This document shows, in pieces, positions 30,704 to 37,598 of a stretch of 37,716 bases of DNA. Source of the DNA: Rothia koreensis (GTDB lineage Bacteria; Actinomycetota; Actinomycetes; Actinomycetales; Micrococcaceae); assembly GCF_004136575.1 (NCBI RefSeq), contig NZ_NOIQ01000021.1, forward strand, positions 1-37,716. Direction: 5' to 3'. A program made the translations under genes and the position numbers. The notes beneath the pieces were generated by a model. The model made no database searches, was not told the DNA's origin, and saw only the letters and a list, made by a program, of their open reading frames with translations. Position 1 is the stretch's first letter. Every line of letters begins with the position of its first letter.

Positions 30704-31921
30704 TTATGAGTGGTGCTTCGACCAGTACATAAGAGCCAAACGTGCAGCTATGTATCCGTTGATGCCGTGTACACCGGGGCCCGGGGGCGTTGCTTGGGAA
30801 CATACAAACCAGTTCTCGACAGGTAGGCTCCAGGGGCTGTGAGGCCAACGCGAGGTCAACATCTGCGACCCGCGTGTTGCGCCTGAGAAGATATCCCCAC
30901 CACGAAAGTTCCTGTTGTGGTGCGCCATTCCGGAAGCGGTTGTCCCGCGGGCATCGATGACTGAATTCCCGAAACCAGGAGCGCGTAATTCGATTTCGTC
31001 GCGCAATGTGCTGACGGGGTCAACGTCAGAGTCTGAAGGCACATGCGAGTACGCCCATACAGTGTGTAAGCCTTCTGGTGCTCGCGTGCTGTCGAAGAGG
31101 CTGGGTTGGGACACCAGCGATACTGGGTGCCGTGGCATGACGCCGCGGGCCACGTCTCGTTCTGCGCGCACGATTTCGTTCCAGGTGCCCCCTAGGTGGA
31201 TTGTGCCTGCACGCCCAGTTTCTGAGTTTTCCCAGGGTATAGGGCGGTCAGTCACGAAATCTGCCTTTGCGACGCCGGGACCGAACTGCCAGTTGTCCGA
31301 GGGAGCGCCTGCCGCTCGGTGAGCGGTTGGGATGTCAGTGTCCCAGAGGACGACGTCAGCCGTTGCCAGATCGTCGGGCAATTTGTCCGGGTTGACAGAA
31401 GAGTTGCACCGGACTTTGCCTCCATGCGCTTCGAGGACTCGCACAAGGTATTCCGCAATCCGACCGCTGCCTCCCACAACAACTGGCCAACCGACAGCCC
31501 ATGCAAGTGCTCCCAGGGCTGTGCCAGTACCGAGGGACCAGGGGTGGTAGGGGCTTCTCATCGAGTGGGCGGCAACGCCCGCAAATTTTGCGAGTTTGGA
31601 ATGCAATCGATCCAGAAACAATCCATCTCGTCGATTTCGTTCCCTGTGACATAACGGGTGTTCGAAGGCACTCGGTGGGAAAGCCATGGGGATGTCCTGC
31701 AACATCCCGAGTTGACGAAAGACCGGTGATACCCAAGCCATGGGATGCACCGCAGAGCAATGGTCGTGAATGGTTCCGAATGGCTCATTGATGTAGGACC
31801 GGAGCCCACCGCCCGGTTCCTCCTGCTCCTCCAGGACAGTGACGGAGAACCCGGCACGAGCAAGGTAAATGGCTCCTACCAGCCCGTTAGGCCCTGATCC
31901 GACGACGACGCCTTGAGGCAT
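30704..31921 (-). CDS. FAD-dependent oxidoreductase (phytoene-desaturase-like), apparently internally deleted
   Basis: A 405-residue flavoprotein. The N-terminal GVVVGSGPNGLVGAIYLARAGFSVTVLEE is the FAD Rossmann fold, GGGLRSYINEPFGTIHDHCSAVHPM is the family's second motif, and the C-terminal TPPGPGVHGINGYIAARLAL is the flavin-closing motif. Relatives I know are 470-500 residues. Between HPLCHRERN and FAGVAAHSM only about 20 residues remain where I expect about 80-100. The frame is intact, so this looks like an in-frame deletion or a diverged short variant, possibly inactive. ATG 31921 follows GGGAGGA. The base composition is lower in G+C than to the left. Confidence 0.8.
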   Translation of the reverse strand: MPQGVVVGSGPNGLVGAIYLARAGFSVTVLEEQEEPGGGLRSYINEPFGTIHDHCSAVHPMAWVSPVFRQLGMLQDIPMAFPPSAFEHPLCHRERNRRDGLFLDRLHSKLAKFAGVAAHSMRSPYHPWSLGTGTALGALAWAVGWPVVVGGSGRIAEYLVRVLEAHGGKVRCNSSVNPDKLPDDLATADVVLWDTDIPTAHRAAGAPSDNWQFGPGVAKADFVTDRPIPWENSETGRAGTIHLGGTWNEIVRAERDVARGVMPRHPVSLVSQPSLFDSTRAPEGLHTVWAYSHVPSDSDVDPVSTLRDEIELRAPGFGNSVIDARGTTASGMAHHNRNFRGGDIFSGATRGSQMLTSRWPHSPWSLPVENWFVCSQATPPGPGVHGINGYIAARLALMYWSKHHS

Positions 31922-32047: not shown

Positions 32048-32239
32048 TTATTGCCGGCTATCCGGCGGATTCTTGGTGAAATAAGAGGCCTTCCACCAGA
32101 ACCATCCAGCTGCCACCGCAAGCAAAATGGTCACCAAGGCCATCATAAATTGGTGAGTGACGAACAGCAGTACGAGGCTCACCACAGCCATGACCGCGCA
32201 CGCAACTGCCTTGATGGTCTCGATTCCTCTGCGGCTCAT
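32048..32239 (-). CDS. Small two-helix membrane protein
   Basis: A 63-residue protein with two hydrophobic segments (AVACAVMAVVSLVLLFVTHQ and FMMALVTILLAVAAGWFWW) and a polar C-terminus. AAGGAG lies five bases before ATG 32239. It reads on the minus strand toward the oxidoreductase gene and is divergent from the peptide operon. I do not recognise a family. A small immunity-like or accessory role for the neighbouring cluster is only a guess. Confidence 0.7.
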   Translation of the reverse strand: MSRRGIETIKAVACAVMAVVSLVLLFVTHQFMMALVTILLAVAAGWFWWKASYFTKNPPDSRQ

Positions 32240-32537
32240 CAACACTCCTTGACTGATTCCGACGGCTGAAACGCCAGAAACCTTACAGCATGAGGTCTCG
32301 CGACATCGAGAGGATTACGCCATATTCTTTGCTCGGGGGCGGCCCGAGCGAGAAACGACGAAAGTTGTCGCTAAAAAGTCTTCATAGTTAGGTAAATTTT
32401 TCGGAAGCTATCAGCTGACTGTTGAAGGGTTCGGAGCTTGTCTGTAGCCTCTGGCAAGGTTGCTTATCTACGCGGCCGTATCGTGAATACTGACAACAAT
32501 GCGCGCCGGAAGACGCGCAAAGAAGGAAGTGATCTAG

Positions 32538-32759
32538 ATGCACGCAGTTCGTCACAAGAGCCAGGATTTGGACTCCGCCGTCGCTTCGGCCTTTGCCAAT
32601 GTTGAGCAGGGTGTCGCACCGACTCAGGAAGGCATGCCCAGCATGTCCACGCCGACTGCTGTGACTGTTGCAACTACTCCGGAAGACGTCTCCGCAGTGG
32701 CTGCCACGGTCAGCGCCGCGACCTCCGTGGCCCAGCTCTCTGTTGCCACACAGAAGTAA
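32538..32759 (+). CDS. Candidate linaridin-like RiPP precursor peptide
   Basis: A 73-residue peptide with AGAAGGAAG eight bases before the ATG. The N-terminal ~36 residues are leader-like and hold FAN (19-21), AP (27-28) and GMPSM. The rest (37-73) starts STPTAVTVATTP and consists almost only of Thr (8), Ser (5), Ala and Val, ending VAQLSVATQK. There is no Cys. From memory, cypemycin's precursor has FAN in the leader and a core starting Ala-Thr-Pro after Ala-Met; here Ser-Thr-Pro follows Ser-Met. Linaridins dehydrate Thr in such cores. It is the first gene of the operon and is followed by a strong hairpin, which suits high precursor expression. It could instead be an SdpC-like small toxin. 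Confidence 0.75.
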   Translation: MHAVRHKSQDLDSAVASAFANVEQGVAPTQEGMPSMSTPTAVTVATTPEDVSAVAATVSAATSVAQLSVATQK

Positions 32760-32768
32760 CCAGTCACA

Positions 32769-32805
32769 AATGAGGTGCCCCGTAAACGGGGCACCTCATT
32801 TTCTG
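32769..32805 (+). terminator. Strong hairpin / attenuator after the precursor gene
   Basis: AATGAGGTGCCCCG (32769-32782) and CGGGGCACCTCATT (32787-32800) pair perfectly over 14 bp with a TAAA loop, followed by TTCTGT. It lies ten bases after the peptide stop and 24 bases before the next start. It should terminate most transcripts and let some through, giving more peptide than modifying enzymes. Confidence 0.85.
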
Positions 32806-32823
32806 TCAAAGAGGAGATCCACC

Positions 32824-33636
32824 GTGGAAGCCCGCAGACACTACTGTCGTCTTCGTCGAAGAGCTGCGATCGGTCAGCTCATTATGGCCGCTGAAAACTT
32901 CACGATGTGGAGCGAGTACGCTTCCGGAGGCTTGTTGTCAGGAAGTTTCAGGCATTCGTATCCTCATTGGGGCAAGCGCTTTCCCAGGTTGACGGCCGTC
33001 ATAGATTCCTCCTGGTTCGCCAAGACCCTCGATGTCCTTAGTTTTTCTAGCGCCGCGGCAACGCTCACGATGGTGAAAACTCCGAGAATCGCGTTTGTCA
33101 CCGCTGCGACCAACGCCGTGACGTACTCGTTGACTCGAATCCGCAATGGTTACGGCCGCGATGGCTCGGACGAGATGCAGGAATTGCTCGGATGGTACGA
33201 TCTGCTGTCTCGAGCAGAAAAATCACAGCAGGATCGGTACGACGTATTCTTGCAGGGCGTCAATCTCCAAATGGCGATCTCGTACTGCGCTTCTGGACTC
33301 GTCAAGGCCACTTCAGAGCAGTGGAGACGCGGTACAGCCTTTGAAGACGTAATGCGGACCTCGATGTACGGGGATCCCTTGATTTCTCGCATCCTTGAAG
33401 CAGTTCCGGGCAGTAGCACGCTGATCTGCTGGCAGACGCTCTTGTGGGAGTCTTTGTATCCACTGAGCTACTTGCTGCCCTATAAAGCCTTCCTTGCCGT
33501 TATTGCAAGCACCGAAGTCTTCCACGGAGCCATCGGGCAGTTCATGGGCCTCCCGCGGTTCTTCTGGGCTTTCGGCGCTTCTCACGAAGCCGCCATCTAC
33601 GCGAAGAAGAAGATGCTCAAAGGGGGGTCAGCATGA
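32824..33636 (+). CDS. HTTM-like integral membrane protein (linaridin 'H'-type candidate)
   Basis: A 270-residue polytopic membrane protein. Family-like marks are RIRNGYGRDGSDEM (about 106-118), NLQMAISYCASGLVKATSEQWRRGTAF (about 147-173) and FHGAIGQFMGLPRFFWAF (about 233-250). These resemble the HTTM domain shared with vitamin-K-dependent carboxylase-like proteins and SdpB. I chose GTG 32824 because AAAGAGGAG lies upstream and the reading frame before it overlaps the precursor gene and hairpin. Linaridin clusters carry a conserved multi-helix membrane protein proposed to act in peptide modification, and this is the best candidate for it. The next gene overlaps its stop by ATGA. The chemistry is inferred only. 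Confidence 0.72.
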   Translation: MEARRHYCRLRRRAAIGQLIMAAENFTMWSEYASGGLLSGSFRHSYPHWGKRFPRLTAVIDSSWFAKTLDVLSFSSAAATLTMVKTPRIAFVTAATNAVTYSLTRIRNGYGRDGSDEMQELLGWYDLLSRAEKSQQDRYDVFLQGVNLQMAISYCASGLVKATSEQWRRGTAFEDVMRTSMYGDPLISRILEAVPGSSTLICWQTLLWESLYPLSYLLPYKAFLAVIASTEVFHGAIGQFMGLPRFFWAFGASHEAAIYAKKKMLKGGSA

Positions 33637-34571
33637 GTCGATCTGAGTCAACGCTCGCGGGAAGGTGGGCAAAATGGGCAGCAACAGGGCTAGTCGCGTT
33701 GCAAGCAGACCGCCTTTCTCGTGCCCATTTGACGCGAAAGGATGTGATGACTCGTTGCGGGCATCCGCCGGAACACCCCGACGATGAAGTTGATGCCCTG
33801 AGCTGGAGTGTCGAAGGGGCGAGTGGACTCATTCTGTTCGAGAGTGGTCTGGGTCTCCCGTACGAATGCTGGGACTGGATGCTCCAGCTGGCGCCCAAGA
33901 ACCAGGATGTCTTGGTGTACAACAGATCCGGCATCAGTGGCACATCACGCGGAGTTGGAGAGGCGCAGTGTCAACAGCGAATCGCCGGGCTCATCAACCA
34001 GTACAGCGAACTGACGATCATCGCCCACTCCATCGGCTCATTGGTCGCCTGTGAGCTCCTCGCGAAAGGTCTTGTCGACGATAGGGTGCGGGTCAAGGTC
34101 TACTTGATCGATCCCACAGATGACGAGCTGATGGCCAGCTCCCAGTCAGATCGGCGTCTTCGACTCTTGGTGGCGCAGTCGTTCCAGGCCCAAATCCTGG
34201 GGAGTATATTGGGAACCAGCTATAGGGCAGGCATATTGGACAGTGACGTCAACTACCGGTCTTCTGTGGAGCGCAAGCTACTCCATGTGGAGTCCTCTCC
34301 CCGAACGGCCTTCGCGGGCCAGCGCGAGCACAAGCGCTTCGCAGACAATCCTCCACGGCTGGATTCCATCGCCGGCGTCGTAGAAGCCGTAATTTCAGCT
34401 GAGATCAACAGTGACCATAATGTTCAGCACCAGATTCGCCAGCGAAAACTTGCGGACAGGCTGTCGGCACGCCACGTTATCGTGTCCGGATCGAATCACT
34501 TTTCCCTGATCGGGACCGAGTCCTCATGTCATGAGGTTGCCGAAGCGATCTGGGGAAGGAGTAAATGCTAG
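33633..34571 (+). CDS. Alpha/beta hydrolase in the peptide operon
   Basis: A 312-residue hydrolase. The nucleophile elbow is AHSIG with Ser at about 133, where the usual first Gly is Ala. The acid is probably in YLIDPTDDE, and the catalytic His is in SGSNHFSLIG near the C-terminus. ILFESGLGLPYECW and YNRSGISGTS match the oxyanion-strand and the GxGxS-like loop of the fold. ATG 33633 follows AAAGGGGGG and overlaps the membrane-protein stop. Its place inside the operon suggests leader-peptide cleavage, or acyl/ester chemistry on the product. No signal peptide is clear, so it is likely cytoplasmic or membrane-associated. Confidence 0.85.
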   Translation: MSRSESTLAGRWAKWAATGLVALQADRLSRAHLTRKDVMTRCGHPPEHPDDEVDALSWSVEGASGLILFESGLGLPYECWDWMLQLAPKNQDVLVYNRSGISGTSRGVGEAQCQQRIAGLINQYSELTIIAHSIGSLVACELLAKGLVDDRVRVKVYLIDPTDDELMASSQSDRRLRLLVAQSFQAQILGSILGTSYRAGILDSDVNYRSSVERKLLHVESSPRTAFAGQREHKRFADNPPRLDSIAGVVEAVISAEINSDHNVQHQIRQRKLADRLSARHVIVSGSNHFSLIGTESSCHEVAEAIWGRSKC

Positions 34572-35143
34572 TGAAAGACCTTGCTCGATCCGCAGCGGAA
34601 GTTTCCAAATCTCTCATCGTGGGTCATTGCCTTCTGACAACCGTGGGCAACCTTCCCGACCAGTATCTCCAGATCAACGAGAATCTCGCGCCCTGGGGAT
34701 TGGATGTGCCCACTTGGAAGTTCTTCGGGCCCAATCCTGGAATCGAAAATACCTCGATCTTTGCCCGCCTTGCCGACGAATCATCCCCCATTGGACAGTG
34801 GACCAGAATCGACCGAGACCATCAGCGGCCGTGGCACGCCCTCCTTTGGAACCCAGGCAGCCGTCGTCCAAAAGTCGCTTTCGACGCGACACAACAAATT
34901 CGAAAGATGGCAGTGCAACTCAATGGTTCGGCGGCGATGATCGAGCATTCGGCTCCCTTCACTGTCCTCAAACGATTCGTTTTCTCGAAAATCTCGCCCG
35001 AAAACAGGGCACTTAAGCACCAGATTATGATTCTTGTCACGCGTCCAGGGCGTCACGATGATTACAGCTACCCAGCATATGTATCTACTCCCGTGAATCG
35101 GAGTTCGAACATCGAGGGCGCATCCACCCCGGGGGGAGAATAG
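34565..35143 (+). CDS. Small FFGPNP-motif protein (linaridin 'L'-type / SdpA-like candidate)
   Basis: A 192-residue protein with one weakly hydrophobic N-terminal segment (about 16-30). The most distinctive motif is PTWKFFGPNPGIENT (about 49-63). A W-x-FF/MF-x-PNP motif is seen in small proteins paired with HTTM proteins, SdpA among them. The ATG overlaps the hydrolase stop, with GGGGAAGGAG upstream. I propose that it works with the HTTM-like protein on the precursor, as an H/L pair. No catalytic motif of a known enzyme class is visible, and the family assignment is by motif only. Confidence 0.65.
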   Translation: MLVKDLARSAAEVSKSLIVGHCLLTTVGNLPDQYLQINENLAPWGLDVPTWKFFGPNPGIENTSIFARLADESSPIGQWTRIDRDHQRPWHALLWNPGSRRPKVAFDATQQIRKMAVQLNGSAAMIEHSAPFTVLKRFVFSKISPENRALKHQIMILVTRPGRHDDYSYPAYVSTPVNRSSNIEGASTPGGE

Positions 35144-35232
35144 GTATCAGCGGCCACATACCAGCCAAGGAAGGGGGTGAAAGACTATTCGGTGCTGTCT
35201 GTATCTGTGCGGGTTCCTTCGCCACGGCCCTG

Positions 35233-36726
35233 GTGCCTGTAGCCGTCAACAGAATTATCAGCGCGCTGGAGAAATCGGATCACCACTTTCGGACGCTGTT
35301 GCTCCAACTGATCATGACGGCACTCATCGGCGGCCTCTTCTATGCGGTCGGGACCATTCTGGTCACTGACAGCATAGAGCGAACCACCCGTCGGTTGAGA
35401 GGGCTGGCCATACGAGCGGGTCTCCGCCGGGACGAACCCTCCGCTGCCGAGGTGACGTCCGTCGTCCTGCAGGACGCACAGGTGGCCAAAGGGTGGTGGC
35501 TTGTCTTATGGATGTTCCTGCCCTCAACTCTTGTCACGATCGCTACCTCAGCGGTAGCCCTGCTCAGCACCGACGTGTACGCTGCTCTCGTCGTTTTCGG
35601 CACCTGCGGTTGTTTCGCAGTGCTGGCCATTGTCATCAACGTGCGTGTGGCCCATATGTCGGAAGACCTTCAAGCTCGGTACGCTGGTGCCCACTCGACG
35701 ATCGGGGCCGTTCTGCGCGGACGAAGCGCCGTCGTGGGTTCATGGCTTCGCGACCGTTTGAATTCGATCACCGATGCTGAATTCCGCACAGTACAAGTCC
35801 GCTCCTTCAGGGTAAGTACCCTCGGACTGACGATCGTTCCGTTGACGTTCTTGCTGCAACCTGTGGCCGTATCACTGATTCTCACCGTGCGCGGAGACAG
35901 CATGCCGGCGGGGACGGTGGTCTCAACTATGTTGTACGCCGGGATGATAGCAAGCCCCGCCTCACAACTGGGATCCCAGTTGCCGCGCCTTGCCGAAGCC
36001 TCCGGCGCATTGCGCAGACTAAAGCGATTGGGGCGTCCCGAAACCAGTCAGGGTGCGACGTTGGGACTTTCCAGGAGCCAAGAGGATACCTCGTTGTCTT
36101 CACTGCCGGTCCACCAGCCAAAATCAGGAACCTTGTTTACGATGGCGGGAGACCTGGCTCGATCCTATCCGGAAGTACGTGTCCACAATATCGACGGGAT
36201 CATCGTGATTTCGGGCCCTTCCGGGTGCGGCAAGAGCCGTGTACTTGCTCAGCTGAGTGCGGCGCTGGAAGATCGTGGATGGGGCAACCAGTCCACACTG
36301 GTGGACCAAGAGGTCAGCACATGGGGTCTTCCTATCCACGACTATCTGAGCACCTCCGAGCTCGGTCCGAGGGCGAGACGGCCCCGTTCTCTCGAAGCAG
36401 CTCTCGAAGCGGTGGACCTTCATGAGATAGCGCGTGACAGCACCCTCGGGACGAGAACTGCGCTGGAACTTTCAGTAGGTGAACGGAGACGGCTGGCTAT
36501 CGCTCGATCCCTCCTACGAGCCGCACCCATCAGCATGTTCGATGAGCCCTTGGCCGGACTGGACAATGAACGACGGCACATGGTGATTTCGCGGCTCTGG
36601 GAACTGAGCCGGGAGAGCGCAGTCGTTGTATGCGGTCACGACGTCGGTCCTTGGACGGACACCCGCACCATTCCAAAGCCCTATCAACAGTCGAACCGGG
36701 AGAGCGGACCGTGCGCCGAACACTGA
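35233..36726 (+). CDS. ABC exporter with fused membrane and ATPase domains (peptide export candidate)
   Basis: A 497-residue half-transporter as drawn. The N-terminal ~240 residues hold about five hydrophobic helices. The C-terminal domain has Walker A GPSGCGKS (~327), signature LSVGE (~412), Walker B ISMFDEP (~432) and an H-loop VVCGHD. It is likely to export the mature peptide as a homodimer. The start is doubtful. GTG 35233 has no ribosome-binding site and cuts into the first helix, since the frame stays open upstream to 35062 and its translation (LFGAVCICAGSFATALV) continues that helix. That extension has no ATG, GTG or TTG. A strong AAGGAAGGGG at 35167 serves a different frame. Confidence 0.88.
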   Translation: MPVAVNRIISALEKSDHHFRTLLLQLIMTALIGGLFYAVGTILVTDSIERTTRRLRGLAIRAGLRRDEPSAAEVTSVVLQDAQVAKGWWLVLWMFLPSTLVTIATSAVALLSTDVYAALVVFGTCGCFAVLAIVINVRVAHMSEDLQARYAGAHSTIGAVLRGRSAVVGSWLRDRLNSITDAEFRTVQVRSFRVSTLGLTIVPLTFLLQPVAVSLILTVRGDSMPAGTVVSTMLYAGMIASPASQLGSQLPRLAEASGALRRLKRLGRPETSQGATLGLSRSQEDTSLSSLPVHQPKSGTLFTMAGDLARSYPEVRVHNIDGIIVISGPSGCGKSRVLAQLSAALEDRGWGNQSTLVDQEVSTWGLPIHDYLSTSELGPRARRPRSLEAALEAVDLHEIARDSTLGTRTALELSVGERRRLAIARSLLRAAPISMFDEPLAGLDNERRHMVISRLWELSRESAVVVCGHDVGPWTDTRTIPKPYQQSNRESGPCAEH

Positions 36727-37181
36727 CGATATTTCTTTACTTCGTTTACGGAATCATCGGGCTCTCGCTTCTGACGCTGGTGCTCTCGTGGATTCTGTTT
36801 TCGCAGTATTCGGATTTCTATATCAGCACCCACCAGGCTTCCTTCGTAGATCTCCCGGACGACCAGTTCCGGAAGAATACGGTGATCTTCATCCTGGCCC
36901 TGCGCGGCTTGTTTGCCTTGGGCTGGATCAGTTCACTGCTCTACACCCGCAAGCTGGTACAGGCCCACAACCGGCACCTGCTGGCGATCGTCACTGTCTA
37001 CGCCGTCATCAGCTTTCTGGGTTACGGGCTTCTGGCCTGCCAGCCTGCTTTGCCATGGCAGACAATCATCCGATGTTTGCAAAGCGCGATTGGGGCCAGC
37101 ATGATTGTCCTGATTTGTGTCCCGAATTGCCGGTCATCCATTAGGGACTACATCGGCGAGTATGAGTCAGTGTCCGGATGA
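36711..37181 (+). CDS. Four-helix membrane protein, last gene of the peptide operon
   Basis: A 156-residue protein with four hydrophobic helices (TLTIFLYFVYGIIGLSLL, then VIFILALRGLFALGWISSLL, LLAIVTVYAVISFLGYGLLA and AIGASMIVLICV). GTG 36711 follows GGGAG and lies 16 bases inside the ABC gene; frames reaching further upstream only cross the ATPase. I recognise no family. Its position after an exporter fits an immunity protein or an exporter accessory, but this is inferred from context. Confidence 0.75.
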   Translation: MRRTLTIFLYFVYGIIGLSLLTLVLSWILFSQYSDFYISTHQASFVDLPDDQFRKNTVIFILALRGLFALGWISSLLYTRKLVQAHNRHLLAIVTVYAVISFLGYGLLACQPALPWQTIIRCLQSAIGASMIVLICVPNCRSSIRDYIGEYESVSG

Positions 37182-37199: not shown

Positions 37200-37598
37200 T
37201 CAGCTGAGCACGCGAATGCCCTCGTCGGCGGTCCAGGTGACCTCGACGCCGTTGCTGAACTTCTGGTGGATCTTCCCGTCCGAGCCCTGGAACTCGTCCG
37301 TCGTCGGCTTGCCCCACCCCGATTCACGGCCGTTCTCGATCCAGGCACCGCCGATGGCGCCGGTCTCGATGATGGTGTGGGCGCCGTCGGACGGGGTCCA
37401 CATCATGAGGTTCGACCGGCCGGAGGCGGTTCGGAACCACTGGTACGCGTACCCGTCCGCGCTGACCTCTTCGGACGTGGGGTAGCCGTAGGTGTTCTCG
37501 TACCCGCCGTCACGGAATTTGGCACCGATGGCGCCCGAGAAATTCACCGAGTGCGTGCCGGTGAACGGGGTCCAGTAGATGGTGTAGTTGTTGCTGAA
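37200..37598 (-). pseudogene. LGFP-repeat protein remnant, 5'-truncated
   Basis: An open frame reading TIYWTPFTGTHSVNFSGAIGAKF, GGYENTYGYPTSEEV and GWGKPTTDEFQGSDGKIHQK encodes at least two LGFP-type repeats with the normal C-terminal end. LGFP repeats occur in actinobacterial surface proteins. Upstream it meets TAG at 37599-37601 in mid-repeat, without a start codon or signal peptide, and the DNA turns AT-rich. It is probably cut off by a recombination or insertion event. It converges with the peptide operon, 18 bases away. Confidence 0.82.

Follow-up and report, generated by a model that had tools for sequence, protein, structure and literature searches.

A probable linaridin cluster without decarboxylase and N-methyltransferase genes in Rothia koreensis

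Genes of the cluster

We analyzed 37,716 nucleotides of Rothia koreensis DNA (contig NZ_NOIQ01000021.1, assembly GCF_004136575.1), hereafter the window, whose forward strand carries at 32538-37181 six open reading frames (ORFs) that we read as a linaridin biosynthesis cluster. The ORF reading of the window contains all six, in the co-directional and mostly overlapping arrangement that an initial annotation had described, with overlaps of 4 nt between G and E and 7 nt between E and L; purine-rich sequence precedes the starts of the ORFs other than T. With a probability of about 0.86, we consider that the cluster encodes a linaridin, that its LinH groups with the cypemycin-type (type A) lineage, and that it lacks a decarboxylase, an N-methyltransferase, and a C-terminal Cys.

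The first gene, A (32538-32759), encodes the predicted linaridin precursor of 73 amino acids, which contains no Cys. Its leader displays FANV..G and the motif PSMSTP at residues 34 to 39, and the predicted core (residues 37 to 73, 37 residues) holds 8 Thr, 5 Ser, and no Cys, so that the PxxxTP leader motif and the Thr-rich core of linaridin precursors are both found. Across 12 aligned precursors, G25, P34, M36, T38, and P39 do not vary, and a TTPED(V/I) core without Cys is common to the nearest precursors, those of Williamsia and Flexivirga. In 100,000 composition shuffles of precursor A, P...TP arose with a frequency of 0.020, and FA[DNSG] followed by P...TP, a pattern picked after inspection of the sequence, with a frequency of 0.0001.

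The three following genes encode G (32824-33636, GTG start, 270 amino acids), an HTTM-fold membrane protein corresponding to the HTTM part of LinH (CrdG type); E (33633-34571, 312 amino acids), an alpha/beta hydrolase corresponding to the hydrolase part of LinH (CrdE type); and L (34565-35143, 192 amino acids), a LinL protein related to DUF5819, with an N-terminal helix, an alpha/beta domain, and an FFGPNP motif. In Pfam, A, G, L, and the last membrane protein individually gave no match above cut-off. The hydrolase assignment of E was borne out by Abhydrolase_6 (E 3.2e-9), and its catalytic residues Ser133, Asp160, and His289 are kept, Ser and His in 35 of 37 aligned rows and Asp in all 37. 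The invariant residues of the L alignment are F54, P56, P58, R68, R100, K103, D107, Q153, and S174; DUF5819 matches 23 of its 47 members at E <= 0.01, the window L not being among them.

The exporter gene T (35140-36726, the frame being open from about 35140 and the start uncertain) encodes both ABC_tran and ABC_membrane above the Pfam cut-offs, in agreement with the fused membrane and ATPase domains first proposed. The last gene encodes a small membrane protein of 156 amino acids if translated from GTG 36711 (36711-37181), which is preceded by GGGAGAG; the alternative start is ATG 36630. GTG 36711 is a possible start because the alignments with the homologues in Flexivirga meconopsidis (L022) and Williamsia deligens (L021) begin at residues 34 and 39, respectively; that with the W. 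serinedens (L033) homologue begins at residue 16. Among the 129 loci collected, and its own copy aside, only Williamsia and Flexivirga have homologues of the last protein (E 8e-13 to 3e-9).

Assignment to the linaridin class

For comparison, we used corynaridin of Corynebacterium lactis, for which the available text of a 2022 report (PMC9927463) gives six genes, A, L, G, E, C (a short-chain dehydrogenase/reductase [SDR]), and T, with neither a decarboxylase nor a methyltransferase. In that text (PMC9927463), deletion of crdA abolishes activity, and mass spectrometry finds all Thr and Ser dehydrated, together with less dehydrated forms and no N-methylation. Locus L127 (genome G846) fits this cluster and was taken as such because of its 69-residue precursor with the motif at 29 to 34, seven Thr, a Ser at core position 29, and its gene set. 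Of note, the 8-fold dehydrated 38-residue core computed from L127 (8479-8685) has a mass of 3979.20 Da, which is 18.01 Da (one water) above the 3,961.19 Da given in the available text (PMC9927463).

The window G, E, L, and T share 25 to 30% identity with their corynaridin counterparts in the matched parts. G aligns with CrdG (29.7% over 192 columns, E 1.4e-21), L with CrdL (29.6% over 71 columns, E 6.1e-8), and T with CrdT (28.7% over 296 columns, E 3.6e-9), and direct BLASTP of E against CrdE reached only E 0.009. Scanning the genomes of named species by alignment gave 39 loci, and iterated profiles found, in the loci collected at that stage, 62 G, 51 E, 50 L, and 3 last-membrane-protein homologues. 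In addition to the window, 38 loci combine G, E, and L. The L profile picks out genes that occupy the LinL position next to precursors of the cypemycin type, and G and E each match the corresponding part of proteins in which both form one open frame, as they do in 12 loci (L003, L005, L022, L037, L038, L040, L043, L049, L050, L052, L053, and L058). The two hallmarks of the linaridin class, a LinL homologue and a LinH with an HTTM part and a hydrolase part, are both found in the cluster, and the expected kinship of the 270- and 192-residue proteins with LinH and LinL is upheld by the Crd alignments and the profiles. In four loci, L004, L048, L051, and L055, G and L are present and no E was found; L004 is the L048 locus, and in L051 G and L occupy a single frame. 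Two complete or partial G-E-L sets, spaced a few kilobases apart, occur in a number of loci that are mostly from Pseudonocardiaceae, with two L in L031, L032, L039, L041, L042, L045, and L046 and two G in L044 and L054. With its profile-building relatives included, the LinL profile matches 26 of 394 class genomes at E <= 1e-4 and 19 of 401 genomes from the family of G210 at E <= 1e-6.

The closest likeness is to clusters of W. deligens (L021), W. serinedens (L033), and F. meconopsidis (L022), which have the same order of precursor, G, E, L, and small membrane proteins, a TTPED core without Cys, and, like the window, no LinD, LinM, or SDR relative in the stretch examined; the best G segments are 45, 42, and 41% identical to the window G, respectively. 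Unlike the window, these clusters lack an ABC exporter gene in the interval from L to the last membrane protein, and in Flexivirga G and E are in one frame whereas those of the window are separate.

The Flexivirga orthologues also allow a comparison with antiSMASH, which presumably adds a margin of 10 kb on each side of a linaridin region. The available part of the species description of F. meconopsidis (PMC10745605) lists a linaridin region at 65,567-88,156 on the region 3 contig. In L022, position 75,567 is where the L orthologue's stop codon ends, and the precursor starts at 78,156. The published region shortened by 10 kb per side is 75,567-78,156, and the margin is supported by the exact fit at both ends. 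With G, E, L, the precursor motif, and this agreement, the linaridin identity first proposed is correct at class level.

A tree built from 29 G proteins, with corynaridin G left out, unites the window, the two Williamsia, and the Flexivirga proteins in one group (support 87/68, not starred). The type A loci together with L026 form another (99/97), and the two groups are joined at 100/99. Cypemycin and other type A clusters (NF033752, NF033753) share with the window the leader pattern G...PxM(T/S or V)TP as well as this 100/99 clade of G proteins; the type A precursors examined end in GST(I/L)CL.C and most of these loci have a Cys decarboxylase, whereas the window has neither. Corynaridin, for its part, shares with the window a PxxxTP precursor, G, E, L, T, and a flavin adenine dinucleotide (FAD) oxidoreductase beside the cluster, and differs in carrying an SDR (CrdC) and in a core without TTPED.

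Another explanation is that the locus encodes an SdpABC-type bacteriocin in which G is SdpB-like and the precursor is cleaved but not dehydrated. G does match TIGR04033 (SdpB), at E 0.0014 with 18.3 bits, the cut-off being 178.4, but CrdG, from a linaridin cluster, gives an equally weak SdpB match (E 8.5e-4). No Sdp-named model matched the other proteins in the same scan, of a library whose set of Sdp models is unverified, and linaridins are favored by LinL, by the PxxxTP precursors, and by the agreement with antiSMASH. We regard an SdpABC-type system as very improbable.

Several observations weigh against the linaridin assignment as we have drawn it. The NF033752 (linaridin_CypA) score of precursor A, over residues 8 to 47, is 14.6 bits for a cut-off of 35; W. 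deligens and Flexivirga, with 26.0 and 28.7 bits, also stay under the cut-off, and the L127 precursor gave nothing at E <= 0.01. On the supporting side, 7 of 10 precursors scanned (L002, L023, L024, L025, L027, L029, and L030) passed with 49 to 90 bits, and these sit just upstream of G homologues; the candidate precursor of L055 had no score. The Glu-Asp of TTPED, conserved in the core of precursor A, is unlike the aligned cypemycin-type cores. The branch of the window G is long (2.06), and its inner placement in the tree is not firm for this reason. The available text of a 2023 review (PMC10880069) attributes the dehydro residues of cypemycin to kinases and lyases; by Pfam, the six proteins of the window include no kinase, lyase, or glutamylation enzyme. 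Finally, the T frame has no ATG, GTG, or TTG upstream of 35233.

The missing T start also enters into an alternative in which the locus is a decayed, non-productive linaridin cluster that has lost the start of T and suffered an internal deletion in a neighboring gene. That neighbor, an FAD oxidoreductase of the phytoene desaturase/CrtO type (30704-31921, minus strand, divergent; NAD_binding_8 and Amino_oxidase in Pfam), has 405 residues, as opposed to 469 in L072 and 473 in L127. Its relatives align to it as two stretches, about residues 4 to 91 and 111 to 397, with extra sequence between, and the protein has possibly decayed, roughly 65 residues appearing to be missing internally. The contig edge at 37716, beyond a convergent LGFP-repeat gene that bounds the operon (37200-37547, minus strand; PF08310, E 7.5e-15), likewise speaks for decay. 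By eye, a T start at 35233 would remove the first hydrophobic stretch, and ATA 35140 or ATC 35146, directly after GGGGGGAGA, are candidate starts; T could begin at a rarer start codon coupled to L. The other ORFs are open and preceded by purine-rich sequence, L is 89% identical to another sequence (P0003) and precursor A 97% identical to P0016, and E retains its catalytic residues and G its conserved lysine. We consider decay unlikely and prefer a functional linaridin cluster.

Accessory genes and distribution

The lack of LinD and LinM, which had been noted within the operon, extends to the genome. A LinD query had no match at E <= 1 in the R. koreensis genome and reached 8.7e-53 in same-genus genome G009, and a LinM query found only a 49-residue match on another contig (E 0.028) and reached 7.4e-65 in G858; no LinM is among the six proteins by Pfam. 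The marks of type A, a C-terminal Cys together with LinD (AviCys) and the N-methyltransferase LinM, are absent from the window, and Pfam finds the SDR that marks type B (legonaridin/corynaridin) neither in the six proteins nor in two divergent ones upstream. The claim that there is no flavin enzyme of the decarboxylase kind stands for the decarboxylase itself; a flavoprotein of another family, the FAD oxidoreductase, nevertheless lies divergently upstream and was not listed initially.

We surveyed 41 loci with L, the window and L044 (G, no L) being excluded; some contigs are short, so that absences there are not firm, and the near-copies L035/L036 and L050/L052 count twice. By homology, LinD relatives lie beside 7 loci (L023, L025, L027, L028, L029, L030, and L072), LinM relatives beside 10 (L039, L041, L042, L045 to L049, L059, and L126), and neither beside 24, including L056, whose LinM relative is 9 kb off. 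The L030 decarboxylase matches NF033753 (CypD) with E 1e-51 and 174.7 bits (cut-off 215). This survey, together with corynaridin, rules out that the minimal gene set is rare, and the lack of both enzymes, first presented as exceptional, is not: the minimal type is not new and pared-down clusters are common. The window cluster is a small toolset with a new core type. As a side observation, Acaricomes phytoseiuli has two G-E-L clusters, L023 and L024, with LinD on the contig only for L023; the L024 precursor likewise ends in CLAC.

The second gene missing from the initial list encodes a membrane protein of 65 amino acids (32048-32245, minus strand, divergent). It had no tblastn relative at E <= 1e-3, and at E <= 1 in the 129 loci, self aside, it matched only 59-amino-acid genes of Williamsia and Flexivirga (E 0.021 to 0.037); a direct comparison gives 38% identity over 60 columns. 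The 59-amino-acid gene sits within the operon, flanked by L and the gene of the last membrane protein, in contrast to its divergent counterpart in the window. We tentatively propose that the two proteins are homologous. L127 showed no match to either small membrane protein of the window at E <= 1.

The cluster has probably been acquired horizontally, as its low guanine-plus-cytosine (GC) content (57.3% across 32538-37181 versus 65.6% across 1-30700) and patchy occurrence suggest: among 34 same-genus genomes, a G query found clear relatives in two (G009, E 4.3e-38; G024, E 1.4e-23) and two further matches at E 0.28 to 0.4. A non-streptomycete host had been suspected correctly; L004, from same-family genome G049, is identical to a stretch of the Auritidibacter ignavus locus L048, and the tree labels place Auritidibacter in the Micrococcaceae. 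In G009, L072 (4919-14919) is a low-GC (34 to 50%) type A cluster near a gene that by eye resembles LanM of class II lanthipeptides.

Proposed maturation and the link to vitamin K carboxylase

The 64-nt gap between A and G contains a perfect 15-bp hairpin followed by UUUU (32768-32801; -29.9 kcal/mol for the whole stretch, z -6.1), which is probably an attenuator giving a high precursor dose, so that precursor A would be made in excess over the enzymes. By analogy with the family, G and E, as a split LinH, and L would act jointly at the membrane on the leader-bound precursor, dehydrating core Thr, perhaps Ser, and possibly epimerizing other residues. The available text of a review (PMC10373908) states that grisemycin production requires grmL, a possible epimerase gene. 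The leader would be removed within the motif PSM|STP and the peptide exported by T. The last membrane protein may serve in immunity or assembly and the 65-residue protein as an accessory or immunity factor, protecting the producer or helping assembly. The product would be, as expected of a linaridin, a linear peptide bearing dehydrobutyrines and comprising residues 37 to 73, with a computed mass of 3529.84 Da unmodified, 3385.75 Da with all 8 Thr dehydrated, and 3295.70 Da with 8 Thr and 5 Ser dehydrated.

G has a membrane fold like that of the human vitamin K carboxylase GGCX (HTTM/GGCX). Linked through a bacterial VKGC (L129) by hhalign and phmmer, K161 of G falls at the position of GGCX K218 and is Lys in 43 of 43 rows. 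The His at the GGCX H160 position is absent: GGCX N159/H160 align with Gly114/Ser115 of G, in a register uncertain by one (Gly114 and Asp/Glu116 being alternatives), and the aligned Ser115 is Ser in 34, Ala in 7, and Thr in 2 of the 43 rows. G and GGCX share about 12% identity, and G appears to be without the GGCX lumenal domain (PF22777).

A doubtful but concrete idea, drawn from this analogy, is that G, with L, is a quinol-driven strong-base enzyme akin to vitamin K carboxylase. K161 would deprotonate menaquinol and oxygen would make the strong base, which would take Calpha protons of the precursor, leading to beta-elimination of water from Thr/Ser and to epimerization elsewhere; phosphate or glutamate activation would not be needed. 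The FAD oxidoreductase near several clusters would recycle the quinone. The retained lysine and the recurring flavoprotein make the mechanism open to testing. If it is true, a cluster without LinD, LinM, and SDR would offer a compact system for reconstituting quinol-base chemistry. Even otherwise, a Cys-free core served by no more than a split LinH, LinL, and one exporter would make dehydration and epimerization testable without competing modifications; if the ordinary reading alone holds, the window adds one more actinobacterial linaridin, with a new core type.

The FAD protein is a possible redox partner. Its relatives are centred within 4 kb of L in 6 of the 41 loci, 7 of 42 with the window: L025 (10940-12355), L029 (10843-12237), L030 (6095-7480), L049 (10313-11728), L072 (9031-10440), and L127 (9010-10428). 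In L127, the gene lies just upstream of the corynaridin precursor, outside the six-gene description in the available text (PMC9927463). Since the family occurs in 22 of 59 related genomes at E <= 1e-10, far fewer than six chance neighbors would be expected, a rough estimate from other genomes. We also observed that the FAD family directly adjoins generic HTTM genes in L008 (1033-3308) and L012 (14-2211), short stretches in which no LinL was found, which suggests a wider pairing of HTTM proteins and flavoproteins.

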